From assembly GCA_012518255.1 (NCBI GenBank), contig JAAYSX010000095.1:1-41915 (forward strand): DNA of 41,915 bases. The letters run 5' to 3'. Below the pieces are notes generated by a model. That model made no database searches and was not told the origin of the DNA. It was given only the letters and a program-made list of their open reading frames with translations. Each line of letters begins with the position of its first letter. Within the stretch, counting starts at the first letter, position 1. Below, piece after piece: positions 222-35,668 of the stretch. The position numbers were made by a program, and so were the translations under genes. Source of the stretch: Candidatus Epulonipiscium sp. Its GTDB lineage: Bacteria; Bacillota; Clostridia; Lachnospirales; Cellulosilyticaceae.

Positions 222-2558
222 TTATACCTCCTGGTCATTAGCAAAAATATGTTCTAGTACTGTAGTCATATCCTTTGCATATATTATTTCTATACCTTCA
301 GTAACATTATCTTCTAATTCGCTAACATCTTTTTTGTTTTCTTGGGGTATTATAACCTTAACTATACCTGCCCTCTTTGCTGCAAGGATTTTTTCTTTTA
401 GTCCTCCGATAGGCAGAACTCTTCCCCTAAGGGTTATCTCCCCTGTCATAGCAATATCGTTCTTAATAGGCTTCTCTGTTAGGGCGGATATCATAGCTGA
501 TGCCATGGTTATACCTGCTGATGGTCCATCTTTAGGCACTGCACCTTCTGGAATATGAATATGGATATCTGTATTTTTATAAAAATTAGGGTCTACCCCT
601 AACTCTGCTGCCTTAGATCTAATATAGCTCATGGCTGCCTTGGCCGATTCTTTCATAACATCGCCAAGTTGCCCTGTAAGTTGTAATTTACCTGTACCTT
701 CCATAGTATTCACTTCTACAGACAGGGTATCCCCTCCCACTGACGTCCAGGCTAGACCTCTTACTACCCCAATTTGAGGCTCTACGCTTTTAGCCTCATA
801 ATGGTATCTTGGTATACCTAGTAATTCTTCTATATTTTTCTCAGTTACTGTAAATGATTTCCTGCCTGTTTCTATTAGTCTTTTGGCTACTTTCCTGCAC
901 AAGGAAGCAATAATACGTTCTAGCTTTCTTACACCTGATTCTTTAGTATATCCTCTTATTATAATTTGTAATCTTTCTTCATTGATTTTAAGCTGGGCCT
1001 TTTTCATTCCATGTTTCTTTAGTTGTTTTGGTATTAAATATTGCTTAGCTATCTCAATCTTCTCTGGTTCAGTGTAGCTACTTACCTCTATAATCTCCAT
1101 CCTATCTAATAAGGGTCCCGGGATATTAGCTGTGCTATTGGCTGTTGCTATAAAAAGCACATTGGATAAATCTACAGGTAACTCTATATAGTGATCCCTA
1201 AATGAATGGTTTTGTTCACTATCTAAGATTTCTAAAAGAGCTGCCGCTGGATCTCCCCTAAAATCATTGCTCATCTTATCTATTTCATCTAAGAGTATAA
1301 GAGGGTTATTTGATTCTGCCTGACTCAATGACTGTATAAACCTACCTGGCATAGAACCAATATAGGTCCTGCGATGTCCCCTTATTTCCGCCTCATCCCT
1401 AACTCCTCCTAGGGATAGTCTTACATAATTCCTTCCTGTTGCCCTAGCAATAGAACTTCCTATAGATGTCTTCCCAACTCCAGGCGGGCCTACCAAGCAT
1501 ATAATTGGACTGCTTACCTGGGGTGATAATACCCTGACAGCTAGGTATTCTAAAATTCTTTCTTTTATTTTAGTTAATCCATAGTGGTCTTCATTTAATA
1601 TTTTTTCGGCCTTTTCCATATCATCATTTTCTTCTGTAGATTTAGTCCAAGGCAAGGCTAAAACATTATCTACATATGTACGTATTACGCCACTTTCTGG
1701 TGAAGCTGGTGAGGTTCTTAAAAGCCGGTCTAATTCCTTGTTTATCTTTTCTTCTACTTCTTTAGGAGGCTTTATCTTCTTAAGCTTTTCCTTATATGCT
1801 TCAATCTCTCCTCTAACCCCATCTTTTTCTCCAAGCTCATCTTGGATAATCTTCAGCTGCTCCCTTAGGTAAAATTCTTTTTGACTTTTATCTATGTTTT
1901 TACGTACCTGACTATTAATATCTTTCTGTATCGAAAGTATTTCAATTTCCCTACGAAGAATCTCTATGGTTTTATAGAGTCTTTTTTCTTCATCTAATTC
2001 TTCTAGTATTTGTTGTTTTTCATATACAGATAAAGGTATATTTGCAATCATTAAATCTGCCACAGGTCCTGGGGATTCTATACCTAGTATACTATATATA
2101 TTTTCTTTGGTTACCCTAGGATTTAGCTTAGAATACTTTTCGAATAATTCACTTGCAACCCTTAGCAGGGCTGTTGTTGAATTAGAAAGCTCTTCTACAT
2201 CTGATTCTTCTTCTATATACATCTTTGCATTTACCAAAAAATATTCTTCTTCATCCTCGTAAGAAGTAATACTTGCCCTATGCTCACCCTCTACTAATAC
2301 CCTCATGGTAGAATCAGAAATCTTTAATATTTGCTTAATACTGGCCACTGTACCAAAATCATATAATTCATCTACCTTTGGATCATCAATTTTTGCATCC
2401 TTTTGGGATACTAATAATATCTTTTCATCATTGATCATGGCATTCTCAATAGCTTGAATTGAATTCTGCCTTCCTACATCAAAATGTATAATCATTTTAG
2501 GAAATACTGTAATCCCCCTTGTAGCTAACATGGGGATTTGTATTTTCTTACTCTCCAT
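222..2558 (-). CDS. lon: ATP-dependent protease LonA
   Basis: Cytoplasmic AAA+ serine protease that degrades misfolded and regulatory proteins; 778 residues, normal for bacterial LonA. In order: N-terminal substrate-binding LON domain (about 8-200), coiled-coil linker rich in E/K (about 200-300), AAA+ module with Walker [10 protein letters not shown] near 357-365 and Walker [10 protein letters not shown], then the protease domain with the Ser-Lys dyad: Ser680 in PKDGPSAG and Lys723 in GLKEK. The frame extends to a GTG at 2567, but that GTG is part of the ribosome binding site AGAGGTGG, so I start at the ATG at 2558. It lies downstream of lonB, separated by that gene's terminator and a 150-base AT-rich gap, so it probably has its own promoter. 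I saw no CIRCE element or tandem CtsR heptads in that gap. Confidence 0.97.
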
Positions 2559-2563
2559 ATTTT

Positions 2564-2571
2564 CCACCTCT
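2564..2571 (-). promoter_or_regulatory. Ribosome binding site of lon that decides the start
   Basis: AGAGGTGG lies five bases ahead of the ATG at 2558. The upstream in-frame GTG (2567) sits within this site and therefore cannot use it. Confidence 0.7.
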
Positions 2572-2694
2572 TGGTATCTTTCTATATGTAAATGTATAAT
2601 TTTTATTGTACTTATTACATTCTACAACATTATCTCCCCTATTTAAAGTTTTTACTAGTATTTACAATAAAAATTGACTGTTTGGCAAGGATTA

Positions 2695-2722
2695 TAAAAA
2701 AGCTGCCTAATATAAGGCAGCT
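2695..2722 (-). terminator. Intrinsic terminator of lonB
   Basis: Perfect stem AGCTGCCT/AGGCAGCT (2701-2708 with 2715-2722) read on the minus strand directly after the lonB stop and followed by a run of six T. It separates lonB from lon. Confidence 0.85.
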
Positions 2723-2726
2723 CCCT

Positions 2727-4385
2727 TTATGCATTTAATAAGTCCTGTGCCATATCCTTAATATCTCTAATATCTTCATTAAATACTGACTGTATAACCT
2801 CCTCTATATTAGATACAGCTATAATTTCAATCCCAAAGTCTTCAAAGCTAGACTGCATATTATCAATAGGTATAATAACCTTCTTAACACCTGCTAATTT
2901 AGCTGATGTCACCTTGCTATACACACCACCAACTGGGTATACCTTGCCTAGAATACCTATCTCTCCTGTCATGGCAATTTCCCTTGATATGGGTTTTTTT
3001 AGGATGGCAGAATATAGGGCTACAAATATAGCTATCCCCGCAGATGGCCCATCTACTGGGAGCCCTCCTGGATAGTTAATATGAATATTGTAATCATCAC
3101 GTGATATTCCTATTAAATTTTCTATAAGAGTTAGAGCATTACTTACTGATGCCTTAGCAGAACTTGTGCGTTTGCTACTAGTAGACTTATTATGAAACTC
3201 TTCCTCATCTATAATACCCGAAACAGTAAGCCTCCCCTCCTTACCTTGGCAGGGCTCAAATATGGCCTCTACTTCCAATAAGTGGCCAGAACCTAGGCCT
3301 GTAACAGCTAGGCCATTAACAAATCCTACCCTATGACCTGGCTCCACCCTTTTATAGACCCGTGGCTGGTAGTGGCCGGTTTCAATTACCCACTCCATAT
3401 CCTTAACAGTTATGTTAGCACGTTTATCTAGATTAGCTATACTACCTGCTGTTTGCACCATATTTACAGCATCTCTACCATTACTAGCATAATCTACTAC
3501 TAACTCAGGAACACCATCCTCATACTTAAACATAGACTTTTCCAGTGCATTAATAGTTATTTTTTTAATATCTTCCTTTCCTAAGGAATCAAAAAACACC
3601 TCCATGCACCTTGAACGCAGTGCTGGTGTAATCTCAGAAGGTTGGCAAGTTGTAGCTCCTACAAGCCTAAAGTCTGCTGGGAGACCATTTTTAAAAATAT
3701 CATGAATATGATTGGGAATATTTACATCCCCCTCTGTGTAATATGAACTCTCCAAAAAAACCTTCCTATCCTCAAGAACCTTAAGAAGTTTATTCATTTG
3801 GTTAGGGTGAAGCTCACCAATTTCATCAATAAACAGTATACCTCCGTGAGCCTTAGTAACTGCCCCCATCTTAGGCTGGGGAATACCTGCACTACCATAA
3901 GCCCCAGCACCCTGGTAAATAGGGTCATGGACTGATCCTATTAGAGGGTCTGCTACCCCCCTTTCATCGAATCTTAGGGTTGTACCATCAATTTCTATAA
4001 ATTTCGCATCATGGGTAAAGGGTGAATTATAGATTCCTTTAGCAATATCAAGTGCTATCCTAGCTGCTGCAGTCTTACCAATACCTGGCTCCCCATAGAT
4101 AATTACATGCTGGGGGTTAGGTCCGCATATGGCTGCCTTAAGCGCTAGCAATCCTCTGTCTTGCCCAATAATTTCATTAAAAGATGTTGGCCTTGTCTTC
4201 TCTGAAAGTGGATCCGTTAAAAAGACCCTTCTCATATTGTTAATCTTCTGTTGTTCTCTCGCATCATCCTTAACTACTGTCTTCTTGGCTTTGTTCTTAC
4301 CCTTTAGTAGTACAAGGAAATATATGGCTACGACAATACTGCAAAATAATGAAATAACTGTTAATAGTATTCCTGTGATTTTCAC
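2727..4385 (-). CDS. lonB: Membrane-anchored Lon-like protease LonB
   Basis: 552-residue Lon homologue of the short LonB type. It has an N-terminal membrane segment (about residues 5-28, ITGILLTVISLFCSIVVAIY) in place of the LON substrate-binding domain, an AAA+ domain with Walker A YGEPGIGKTA and Walker B GGILFIDEIGE, and a Lon protease domain with the dyad serine in PVDGPSAG and the lysine in GGVYSK 43 residues later. In B. subtilis lonB also lies between clpX and lonA and is transcribed in the forespore by sigma F, so a sporulation role is likely by homology. Two GTG starts are possible: 4391 and 4385. AAGGAGG lies only two bases before the first but eight before the second, so I chose 4385. 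It is isolated between two terminators, so it is probably its own transcription unit. Confidence 0.93.
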   Translation of the reverse strand: MKITGILLTVISLFCSIVVAIYFLVLLKGKNKAKKTVVKDDAREQQKINNMRRVFLTDPLSEKTRPTSFNEIIGQDRGLLALKAAICGPNPQHVIIYGEPGIGKTAAARIALDIAKGIYNSPFTHDAKFIEIDGTTLRFDERGVADPLIGSVHDPIYQGAGAYGSAGIPQPKMGAVTKAHGGILFIDEIGELHPNQMNKLLKVLEDRKVFLESSYYTEGDVNIPNHIHDIFKNGLPADFRLVGATTCQPSEITPALRSRCMEVFFDSLGKEDIKKITINALEKSMFKYEDGVPELVVDYASNGRDAVNMVQTAGSIANLDKRANITVKDMEWVIETGHYQPRVYKRVEPGHRVGFVNGLAVTGLGSGHLLEVEAIFEPCQGKEGRLTVSGIIDEEEFHNKSTSSKRTSSAKASVSNALTLIENLIGISRDDYNIHINYPGGLPVDGPSAGIAIFVALYSAILKKPISREIAMTGEIGILGKVYPVGGVYSKVTSAKLAGVKKVIIPIDNMQSSFEDFGIEIIAVSNIEEVIQSVFNEDIRDIKDMAQDLLNA

Positions 4386-32694: not shown

Positions 32695-32747
32695 TTTTAT
32701 CCTCCTATTATCTTCTTTTGTTAACCGTCCCTATTATTTTACTTCAA

Positions 32748-32780
32748 AATTCCCCTAACAACAATGTCATTAGGGGAACT
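32748..32780 (-). terminator. Terminator of ytaF
   Basis: Nine-base arms TTCCCCTAA/TTAGGGGAA (32750-32758 with 32770-32778) around an 11-base loop, directly after the ytaF stop; the T run on the minus strand is short. Confidence 0.6.
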
Positions 32781-32781
32781 T

Positions 32782-33411
32782 TTATATTCTTACTAGTTTT
32801 ACTAGGGCTAGTGATATTAAGATTACACCACTTAGCCATGATATATTAAATTTTGCTTTTTGTGCAAACCTATCACCTATTAATACTCCTAGCCATACAG
32901 CAGCCATATGAAAAACAAGTGATGCTAGTAATACCTGGCTATAATTAATGCTACCTAAAGCACTTGCAAAGCCTGCAGCTAAGCCGTCTAAAGATAGGGC
33001 TACTCCTAGCATAAATGCTTCCTTAGTATTAAGTCTACTAGATCTATCAAAATCAGCCTTGGTTGTATCTACATAGATTTCCAGTACAAATCTAAAATCA
33101 TATAATTTAAATCTTATAGTTCTATTTTTGTTTAGGTGTTTTTCTATGATACTTTTACTAATACCCTGGAAAAGTTGATATATTCCCAAGCCTAATAAAA
33201 TAAATATTCCAGCCAAGACCACCAGGTTACCTGGTATTAATTCCCTTACTATGGATCCAAAAAAAAGTGAAATACCAAGAAGAGCTGTACATACGAGATT
33301 AATTGTTATGGCAGACCTAAAAGGTATCTTAATCTTATTAGCACCATAGGCAATGCTAGCTACAAATGCATCTATGGACAAGGCTATTATTAGCAGTATA
33401 GCTTCTAACAT
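32782..33411 (-). CDS. ytaF: Sporulation membrane protein YtaF (MntP-like fold)
   Basis: 209-residue polytopic membrane protein with about six membrane segments. The first helix LIIALSIDAFVASIAYGANKI and the fourth FMLGVALSLDGLAAGFASALG both carry the SxD(A/G)xxAxxAxG repeat of the MntP/YtaF family; the aspartates (SIDAF, SLDGL) line the transport path in MntP. The long central hydrophilic loop (about 85-130) distinguishes YtaF from the shorter manganese exporter MntP. YtaF affects sporulation in Bacillus; the transported ion is not established. The ATG at 33411 has AGAGGTGG four bases ahead. It follows ligA by 58 bases and has its own terminator. Confidence 0.88.
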   Translation of the reverse strand: MLEAILLIIALSIDAFVASIAYGANKIKIPFRSAITINLVCTALLGISLFFGSIVRELIPGNLVVLAGIFILLGLGIYQLFQGISKSIIEKHLNKNRTIRFKLYDFRFVLEIYVDTTKADFDRSSRLNTKEAFMLGVALSLDGLAAGFASALGSINYSQVLLASLVFHMAAVWLGVLIGDRFAQKAKFNISWLSGVILISLALVKLVRI

Positions 33412-33440
33412 CCAACCACCTCTAAAATACTTTTTATTTC

Positions 33441-33446
33441 ATTATA
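33441..33446 (-). promoter_or_regulatory. Possible -10 box of ytaF
   Basis: A perfect TATAAT on the minus strand, 30 bases before the ytaF start, with no recognisable -35 at 16-18 bases upstream. If it is used, the ytaF leader starts inside the inverted repeat at 33416-33456. Confidence 0.3.
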
Positions 33447-33469
33447 TTAGGGGTGGCGACATATTGTGC

Positions 33470-35419
33470 TTATATCATATCCATAAACTCTTCTTCACTT
33501 ATTATTGGAATTTCTAATTCTTTTGCCCTTCTGTTCTTACTTGAGGTGGAGTCAACATCATTATTAATTAGGTAGTCTGTATTGCCACTTACAGACCCTA
33601 CTACCTTTCCTCCTAACTCCTCGATCCTCTGGCTTAATTCCCTTCTATTTTTAAAGATACTAACCTTGCCTGTTACAACAAAGGTTTTGCCTGCTATTGA
33701 AGATTCCTCTATCTCTTGAATATTAGGTATATCAAACTCTATTTCTTTCATTAGCCTATTTACAAGCTCCCTATTATCTTCAAGCTTAAAATAAGAATAT
33801 ATACTATGGGCTATAATAGGCCCTATTCCATCTATAGCCACGAGATCCTCTTCTTTGGCGTCCATTATGTCATTTATATTATAATTAAAATGATTACAAA
33901 TTAGTCTTGCATTGCTAATTCCAACCCTTTCTATACCCAGTGCATATAGAAAGTTTGCAAGATCGGTTTTCCTAGATGCTTCTACTGAATCTATAATATT
34001 ATTATATGACTTTTCCCCGAAGCCATCTAGACTTATAATCTCTTCTTTATGATTGTCTAGATAATATAAATCCACAAAATCATTGATGAAGTTATTGCCT
34101 ATAAATTTCTCGATACTAGCTTCCGAAAAGCCCTGTATATCCATGGCATCTCTTCCTACGAAATGTACAAAGGCCTTGGCTCTCTTTGCCTGGCAATTAG
34201 GATTACTACAATACAGCACCTTAGCATCCTTAACAACTTCTATTCTAGTTTCCCCGGTGCATACTGGGCACTCTTTGGGAATCTCTATATTATTACTTTT
34301 TGTTATGTTATCTGCAATTTGTGGAATAATCATATTAGCCTTGTATACCTGAATTGTATCCCCTTCCCCTAACTTTAAGTTCTGGACTATGCTAACATTA
34401 TGGACACTTGCCCTTGCAACAGTGGTACCTTCTAATTCTACAGGTTCAAATATTGCTATTGGATTAATAGCCCCTGTCCTAGATGTATTCCATTTTATCT
34501 TTATTAACTTGGTTTCCTTAATCTCATCTTCCCACTTAAAAGCTATAGAATGGCGTGGGAATTTGGCAGTTGCTCCTAATGAATCTGACTTAGATATGCT
34601 ATCTAACGTTACTACCAAACCATCAGAGGCAAAATCCCTCTTTGTAATATTATTGGCAAACCATTCCACTGAATCTGCTACTGTATGGGCATTTACCATC
34701 TTATATTCTACAACTTCAAACCCTTGATCATCTAACCACTTTATCTGCTCTTCCTTAGAGTCTGTGTCAAGACCACCTTCTACTAGGGTAAAGGCATAAA
34801 ACCTTATATTTCTTTGGGCTGTAATCTTTGAATCAAGTTGCCTTACACTACCACTACATAGATTCCTTGGATTTTTGTATTTTTCATCATCTGGAAGCTC
34901 TTTATTAATTCTTTCAAATTCCGAATAGGTAATTATAGCCTCCCCACGAATTGTTACCTGCCCTTTATAATTAATTCCTAGGGGTAGGTTAGCAAAGGTT
35001 CTAGCATTGGAAGTTACATCCTCTCCAATTATTCCATTTCCCCTTGTAATAGCTTGCACAAGCCTGCCTTCATTATAGGTAATAACTAGTGTAATGCCAT
35101 CTAATTTCCAGGATAATAATCCCTGATCATTATCCAAAAAACTTTCTAACCTACTTACTTCCTTAGTCTTATCTAGGGATAGTATGCTTTGGCTATGCCT
35201 AACTTTAGGCAAGTCACTAAGCACCTCATATCCAACCTTCTGGGTAACACTATTTGCAAGTATTACTCCAGTTTCTTCTTCTAACCATTTTAATTCATCA
35301 TAAAGCTTATCATATTCATGGTTAGGCATAATTTCCCTATCTTCTTGTTCATATATACGGGCAGCTTCAGCTAATATTGGTACTAGCTCCTGAATCCTTT
35401 TAATTTGTTTTGCTCGCAT
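33470..35419 (-). CDS. ligA: NAD-dependent DNA ligase LigA (divergent clostridial form)
   Basis: 649-residue NAD-dependent ligase that seals nicks in replication and repair. The order is: domain Ia (EYDKLYDELKWLE), adenylation domain with Lys105 in SWKLDG, OB fold (TGAINPIAIFEPVELEGTTVARASVHN), four-cysteine zinc finger (CPVC...CSNPNC), helix-hairpin-helix repeats, and a C-terminal BRCT domain (about 570-649). Two motif positions differ from typical LigA: the residue two before the lysine is Ser where Glu is usual, and RGDG reads RGNG. The zinc, HhH and BRCT parts are intact, so it is probably functional. The frame opens at 35446, but AGAGG five bases before the ATG at 35419 decides the start. 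Confidence 0.93.
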   Translation of the reverse strand: MRAKQIKRIQELVPILAEAARIYEQEDREIMPNHEYDKLYDELKWLEEETGVILANSVTQKVGYEVLSDLPKVRHSQSILSLDKTKEVSRLESFLDNDQGLLSWKLDGITLVITYNEGRLVQAITRGNGIIGEDVTSNARTFANLPLGINYKGQVTIRGEAIITYSEFERINKELPDDEKYKNPRNLCSGSVRQLDSKITAQRNIRFYAFTLVEGGLDTDSKEEQIKWLDDQGFEVVEYKMVNAHTVADSVEWFANNITKRDFASDGLVVTLDSISKSDSLGATAKFPRHSIAFKWEDEIKETKLIKIKWNTSRTGAINPIAIFEPVELEGTTVARASVHNVSIVQNLKLGEGDTIQVYKANMIIPQIADNITKSNNIEIPKECPVCTGETRIEVVKDAKVLYCSNPNCQAKRAKAFVHFVGRDAMDIQGFSEASIEKFIGNNFINDFVDLYYLDNHKEEIISLDGFGEKSYNNIIDSVEASRKTDLANFLYALGIERVGISNARLICNHFNYNINDIMDAKEEDLVAIDGIGPIIAHSIYSYFKLEDNRELVNRLMKEIEFDIPNIQEIEESSIAGKTFVVTGKVSIFKNRRELSQRIEELGGKVVGSVSGNTDYLINNDVDSTSSKNRRAKELEIPIISEEEFMDMI

Positions 35420-35482
35420 TATATCCTCTTTCCATAGATAAGTCATAAGTCATTATTAGTCCCAGTTCTTCCATTATTATAT

Positions 35483-35668
35483 TCATTTATATTCCGAATT
35501 CACATCCTGCAAAAACTGCTTTTTTGTATGTGTTAACTTTTCGTATTCTTCTTTAGAAATATCACCTTTACGCAAAAGTTCATCTGTCAAATCTAAAAAC
35601 TGCTTTGTGATATCTATCAAGGTCTCAATCTGTGTTAAATTTATACTTTCCGCATCAGTAGTAAGCAC
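35483..35668 (-). CDS. Small acidic helical protein between pcrA and ligA
   Basis: 61 residues, unknown. It is predicted wholly helical: two amphipathic helices (about 9-33 and 37-58) around the turn KGDISKEEYEKL, rich in Lys, Glu, Leu and Thr, without cysteine or membrane segment. It starts at GTG (35668), with a weak AGGATG nine bases upstream. It lies between pcrA and ligA on the same strand, 63 bases ahead of ligA. The regular heptad-like pattern and good codon use speak for a real gene, but the weak start keeps confidence moderate. Confidence 0.6.
   Translation of the reverse strand: MLTTDAESINLTQIETLIDITKQFLDLTDELLRKGDISKEEYEKLTHTKKQFLQDVNSEYK

Follow-up and report, generated by a model that had tools for sequence, protein, structure and literature searches.

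How can the translation of a sporulation gene be tied to the correct promoter when the gene lies directly behind a housekeeping gene? This question is raised by the ytaF locus in the window, i.e., the whole analyzed stretch of 41,915 nucleotides of Candidatus Epulonipiscium sp. (contig JAAYSX010000095.1). On the minus strand, ligA (33470..35446), taken from the list of open reading frames and coding for an NAD-dependent DNA ligase of 658 aa (TIGR00575, 556.8 bits, over the cut-off), terminates with its stop codon at 33472-33470, and the start of ytaF (32782..33411), likewise on the minus strand, follows at 33411 after a gap of 58 bases. The 209-aa product was recognized as the sporulation membrane protein YtaF of the MntP superfamily (TIGR02840, PF02659), with 170.4 bits against TIGR02840 at a cut-off of 149.6. 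No terminator-like site was listed within the ligA-ytaF gap by a consensus scan restricted to loops of 3-8 bases; the scan also did not list the terminator-like hairpin located 3' of ytaF (32746..32782, minus strand), which has 17 pairs, a 3-base loop and a predicted energy of -21.1 kcal/mol. Upstream of ligA lies a UvrD/PcrA-like ORF, to which the name pcrA was assigned by reading the ORF, and the 61-aa frame between the two (35483-35668) matched no NCBIfam or Pfam model.

The gene order was compared in loci that mostly had flanks of 1.3 to 4 kb, contig ends truncating some of these. ligA was found in 2 of 103 ytaF loci, namely the window and L115, where it lies about 1 kb off on the strand opposite to ytaF, and it directly precedes ytaF in none of the 102 loci other than the window, contig ends having cut some of these. 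Similarly, among 25 ligA loci, with L067 offering no sequence past ligA, ytaF was found near ligA only in that of the window. In L115, which belongs to another family, a 188-aa membrane protein (2511-3168) is encoded 90 nt after ligA and resembles the MntP/YtaF kind by eye; it was matched by no NCBIfam model, and the true ytaF lies nearby on the other strand.

The initial annotation had described a hairpin in which, on the minus strand, CCACCCCT (33456-33449) pairs at seven of eight positions with the ytaF ribosome-binding site AGAGGTGG (33423-33416) across a 25-base loop harboring a TATAAT. The pairing is present as claimed, and it forms the outer half of a longer, imperfect inverted repeat of 16 bases (33456-33441 with 33431-33416) with 13 of 16 Watson-Crick pairs. 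Since the pairing runs further inwards, the loop comprises 9 bases rather than 25, and the TATAAT, although indeed found at 33446-33441, is located in the left arm and not in the loop. The full left arm CCACCCCTAATATAAT (33441..33456, minus strand) thus faces the right arm AGTATTTTAGAGGTGG (33416..33431, minus strand), which contains the ribosome-binding site. No published description of this hairpin was found in the open-access literature searched.

The segment from 33390 to 33470 (81 nt) has a predicted minimum free energy of -18.0 kcal/mol (z -2.40), and 4 of 200 shuffled sequences folded as low. Among 5000 shuffles, 22 equalled the 8-base match, picked by the reader from the whole window, and 2 the 16-base arm match, the arm having been defined after the pairing was seen. 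The cost of freeing the ytaF ribosome-binding site was equalled in 4 of 1000 shuffles and a duplex-energy test on a 60-nt region gave a weaker result (p = 0.020 to 0.027), these p values shifting with the choice of the region that is shuffled. Among 199 leaders sampled from the same genome and the window (253,039 bases), eight carried an 8-base match of seven or better, and three, ytaF among them, equalled ytaF in both fold energy and site pairing. The ytaF hairpin is unusual for a single leader but not unique in the genome. A slightly different count detected seven of the 199 leaders at seven of eight matches as compared to 3.1 expected by shuffling, with 4 for the complement-not-reversed control and 10 for the direct-repeat control, and these numbers do not support a genome-wide class of masked sites.

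The TATAAT itself was not supported as a sigma-A promoter: by eye, no -35 hexamer at 16-18 nt agrees with TTGACA at more than three of six positions, and the promoter scan listed no promoter at the TATAAT in the gap. It probably belongs to AC-N17-AATATAATG, a sigma K/E-type mother-cell promoter, with a predicted -35 element AC (33466..33467, minus strand) located 17 nt before a predicted -10 element AATATAATG (33440..33448, minus strand), which contains the TATAAT and scores 6.48 bits on a matrix derived from orthologous leaders. We read it as such because of the two-block pattern shared with ytaF orthologues, the likeness to the sigK P2 promoter of Clostridioides difficile and the data available for ytaF of Clostridium perfringens. 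As regards the first of these, 103 ytaF leaders were gathered from named genomes as well as throughout the order, and the -10 matrix was built from 102 of them, excluding the window, with CATAnnAT as a seed set by hand rather than found blind. The matrix converged on [G]CATAnnATR, which reached at least 4 bits in 85 of the 102 leaders, the median distance from the end of the site to the start codon being 29 nt. At 42 of these 85 sites AC was found 16 or 17 nt before CATA (16 and 26 sites, respectively), as compared to a mean of 3.4 at each of five other gaps. Both blocks together were present in 42 of 102 ytaF orthologues and in 4 of 218 control genes, and in the same genome in 2 of 199 sampled genes, one of which is ytaF; the threshold equals the score of the window site, which consequently passes by construction, so that the comparison tells how rarely other genes pass. 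The -10 score alone was reached by 20 of 199 genes of this genome and 32 of 217 controls, which speaks against the reading developed below.

The -10 element of the window has A in place of the usual first C. A single base separates it from CATATAAT, which is reported as the -10 element of the sigK P2 promoter in C. difficile, together with AC as the -35 element and ATA as its counterpart for sigma E (PMC3789822). Activity of the ytaF promoter in C. perfringens was confined to sporulation and depended on Spo0A and sigma E (PMC9332280). Eight ytaF leaders aligned from two sister genera have a promoter block in common. Even if the pairing were due to chance, the promoter call would be corrected, in that the TATAAT more likely belongs to a sporulation promoter.

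The masking arm CCACCCCT (33449..33456, minus strand) lies within the spacer of this predicted promoter and ends directly before the -10 element. Because it sits wholly in the spacer, a transcript initiated there cannot carry it. The start of such a short transcript would be expected at 33430..33436 (minus strand), a region inferred from the usual distance to the -10 box. Folds predicted for naked RNA gave a probability of 0.13 for the ribosome-binding site to be unpaired in transcripts beginning at 33700, 33600, 33520, 33490 or 33460, as compared to 0.44 to 0.50 for those beginning at 33436, 33434, 33432 or 33430. Freeing of the site was predicted to cost 11.7 kcal/mol with starts at 33490 and 33600 and 3.75 kcal/mol with a start at 33434. 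Both transcript forms put forward in the initial annotation, i.e., a long ligA-derived one with a masked ytaF site and one started in the gap that lacks the masking arm, are therefore supported by prediction. The ribosome-binding site is still about half paired in the predicted short transcript, which speaks against the silencing reading set out next.

Following this, we propose that the gap may act as an insulator tying translation of ytaF to the correct promoter. RNA running on from pcrA and ligA, the housekeeping genes that precede ytaF, would include the arm CCACCCCT, which would fold onto the ytaF ribosome-binding site and hold down its translation in growing cells. During sporulation, a mother-cell polymerase carrying sigma K or sigma E would initiate at AC-N17-AATATAATG, and the resulting short message without the spacer-borne arm would be translated. 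We consider it about an even chance, slightly less (a probability of roughly 0.48), that the ligA run-on message of ytaF is silenced while the sporulation message is translated; the pairing, the predicted difference in energy, the lack of a listed terminator between the genes and the statistical match to the ytaF promoter pattern are results of the analysis, whereas run-on transcription, use of the promoter and a difference in translation are inferred. The existence of two transcripts, with a sporulation promoter replacing the vegetative one, is plausible and better supported than it was from reading the sequence alone. If silencing holds true, the layout would be a compact one in which a single segment serves both as promoter spacer and as silencing arm and which guards against a spore membrane protein being made from behind a housekeeping gene; a fold in the run-on RNA would then silence a further sporulation gene besides sigG.

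Sigma E is encoded in this genome with a score over the cut-off, which is in favour of this reading. By contrast, the Spo0A C-terminal domain was not found in this genome, although it was present in 20 of 23 other genomes of the family; its absence may reflect a gap in the draft assembly, which is 95% complete. Furthermore, deletion of ytaF in C. perfringens left sporulation almost at wild-type level (PMC9332280), which makes the benefit of such a control questionable and also speaks against the silencing reading. The genome additionally encodes sigG and gives a further sigma-E-like match of 217 bits, below the cut-off.

The arrangement proposed here resembles that of sigG (spoIIIG) in B. subtilis, for which a large hairpin was proposed to block run-on translation; RNA initiated at the sigG promoter itself cannot adopt this fold (PMC5942855). 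Like ytaF, sigG is a sporulation gene lying close behind a co-directional gene, being located downstream of spoIIGA-sigE, and in both cases the site would be masked in the long run-on RNA, as predicted here for ytaF, whereas the own developmental promoter, likewise predicted for ytaF, excludes the hairpin (PMC5942855). The systems differ in hairpin size (20 or more pairs in sigG as compared to 13 of 16 in ytaF), in the upstream genes, which are sporulation genes at sigG and the housekeeping gene ligA at ytaF, and in the promoter, which is of the sigma F/G type in sigG and of a predicted mother-cell type in ytaF (PMC5942855). A second, small hairpin at the sigG ribosome-binding site, which lowers translation 2-4 fold in the short transcript, is located inside the own-promoter transcript, whereas the ytaF masking arm lies outside of it (PMC5942855). 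Protein and operon are unrelated between B. subtilis sigG and ytaF. In the IS10/Tn10 transposase, RNA running in from outside carries an arm that hides the start, and the element's own transcript is made without this arm; there, the arm is a terminal repeat of a mobile element, whereas no mobile element was seen at ytaF. By analogy, the ytaF leader would work like the sigG leader.

In the genome studied here, sigG is located 87 nt after sigE, and the junction (L181 2205-2310) is predicted to fold over the sigG ribosome-binding site with -25.1 kcal/mol (z -3.86; none of 200 shuffles as low). This predicted fold matches the mechanism proposed for sigG in B. subtilis. Masking of sigG was scored in the best 30 of 52 genomes with a match, of which 29 yielded a value, L191 being short of upstream sequence, and 10 of the 29 leaders were masked at p ≤ 0.05, the sample including the sigG leader of this genome at 0.052. 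The masking test is thus not sensitive.

The same test was applied to ytaF in relatives. When the order was searched, 152 of 392 genomes had a hit at E ≤ 1e-12 among the matches listed, from which the 30 loci returned and 60 loci hand-picked down the list, with some skipped, were taken. From 125 ytaF loci in total, 103 leaders were kept after removal of duplicates, truncated genes, leaders with short upstream sequence and those with a site match below 4. Start codons and ribosome-binding sites were rule-based guesses of the scripts; the site of L198 was judged to be wrongly chosen, and this row was kept in the count. Masking at p ≤ 0.05 was detected in 13 of 103 ytaF leaders and in 18 of 227 neighbouring control genes, which is no significant excess (Fisher 0.22, Mann-Whitney 0.13), so that an enrichment of ytaF masking across the order was not supported. 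A smaller scoring of 33 ytaF leaders, from which L010, L018 and L036 were left out because they lacked a start or a match to the ribosome-binding site, found 6 masked at p ≤ 0.05. Within the family the arms are not conserved: in the sister genera, where ligA does not lie upstream of ytaF, 1 of 10 leaders (L007) was masked at p ≤ 0.05, the genus itself being represented by one genome.

Masked ytaF leaders amounted to 4 of 19 with a close co-directional neighbour and 9 of 84 otherwise (Fisher 0.25, Mann-Whitney 0.07). In L017, L147, L024 and L149, ytaF is strongly masked and yet has a divergent neighbour, so that run-on transcription fails to explain the masking there. Far stronger hairpins than that of the window were found at ytaF in L100, a member of another family (720-800), where a co-directional gene lies 88 nt upstream (duplex -27.6 kcal/mol), and in L020, where the distance to such a gene is 59 nt (duplex -25.2 kcal/mol); L100 moreover has the same AATATAATGAAAT as the window, placed between its hairpin arms. 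Together with the window and, more weakly, L021, these cases and the known case of sigG would suggest that read-through silencing has arisen repeatedly and independently as a solution for ytaF and perhaps other sporulation genes behind co-directional genes, in which the promoter region gives rise to an arm against the ribosome-binding site and thereby marks run-on messages as untranslatable; such a generalization is, in our estimate, rather doubtful. Among the control genes of the ytaF loci, masked sites were observed in 10 of 60 located behind a close co-directional gene and in 6 of 132 others, 35 of the 227 having no upstream neighbour by which to be classified. This excess may be due to translational coupling or to an artefact of gene calling.

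A serious rival to silencing is that the ytaF sporulation promoter has a C-rich spacer which fortuitously complements the ribosome-binding site, with no silencing having been selected. Such a chance origin is quite possible, since the hairpin was selected out of the whole window, and it would be in accordance with the leader counts given above (about 3 of 199 expected at seven of eight, 7 seen, 4 and 10 in the controls), with masking before ytaF that does not significantly exceed that of neighbouring genes and with the lack of conservation of the arms in the family. It accounts less readily for the fact that the 16-base arm match, albeit chosen post hoc, and the freeing cost (2 of 5000 and 4 of 1000 shuffles) are rarer than the 8-base match, and for an arm end that directly abuts the -10 element. 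The short co-directional gap without a listed terminator and the excess of masking among control genes behind co-directional genes could alternatively point to translational coupling, in which ribosomes terminating on ligA open the hairpin and the output of ytaF follows that of ligA. We regard coupling as unlikely: the core arm begins with the 14th nt downstream of the ligA stop codon, which is probably outside the footprint of a terminating ribosome, so that the suggestion of the initial annotation that a trailing ribosome opens the stem finds little room, and tying a sporulation gene to DNA ligase would hardly be meaningful where a sporulation promoter is predicted for it.

A stem over the ribosome-binding site is also the general shape of a riboswitch or RNA thermometer, and opening by a ligand or by temperature had been suggested for this leader as well. 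Within the gap, however, no Rfam family matched at its gathering score, the only match being a far sub-threshold one to a plastid family (19.2 bits, E 3.5, cut-off 54.3), and the 58 bases offer little room for an aptamer; with arms that are not conserved in the family either, a ligand- or temperature-sensing leader is very improbable. Much the same holds for a DNA operator, i.e., an inverted repeat over the promoter bound by a dimeric regulator: despite the overlap of the dyad with both the spacer and the -10 element, its right arm is largely dictated by the ribosome-binding site, the arms differ by three mismatches and the left arm does not recur elsewhere in the window with fewer than 3 mismatches, which makes an operator hardly to be expected.

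Exact inverted pairs of the type CCTCCT...AGGAGG were found at three places in the whole genome. One of them, in the metK leader behind a SAM riboswitch, was set aside, as was a hairpin after a gene end in C35 for which no role at a ribosome-binding site was discerned. The third precedes a membrane-protein-like gene and forms a perfect hairpin, with the 11 pairs of CCCTCCTAAGT and ACTTAGGAGGG lying over the ribosome-binding site (L080 3078-3126, equivalent to L091, before the ORF at 1546), and it is a stronger candidate than ytaF for the same kind of masking. The gene that follows codes for a 227-aa membrane-like protein matching no NCBIfam or Pfam model and is located directly behind a thioredoxin-reductase-like gene.
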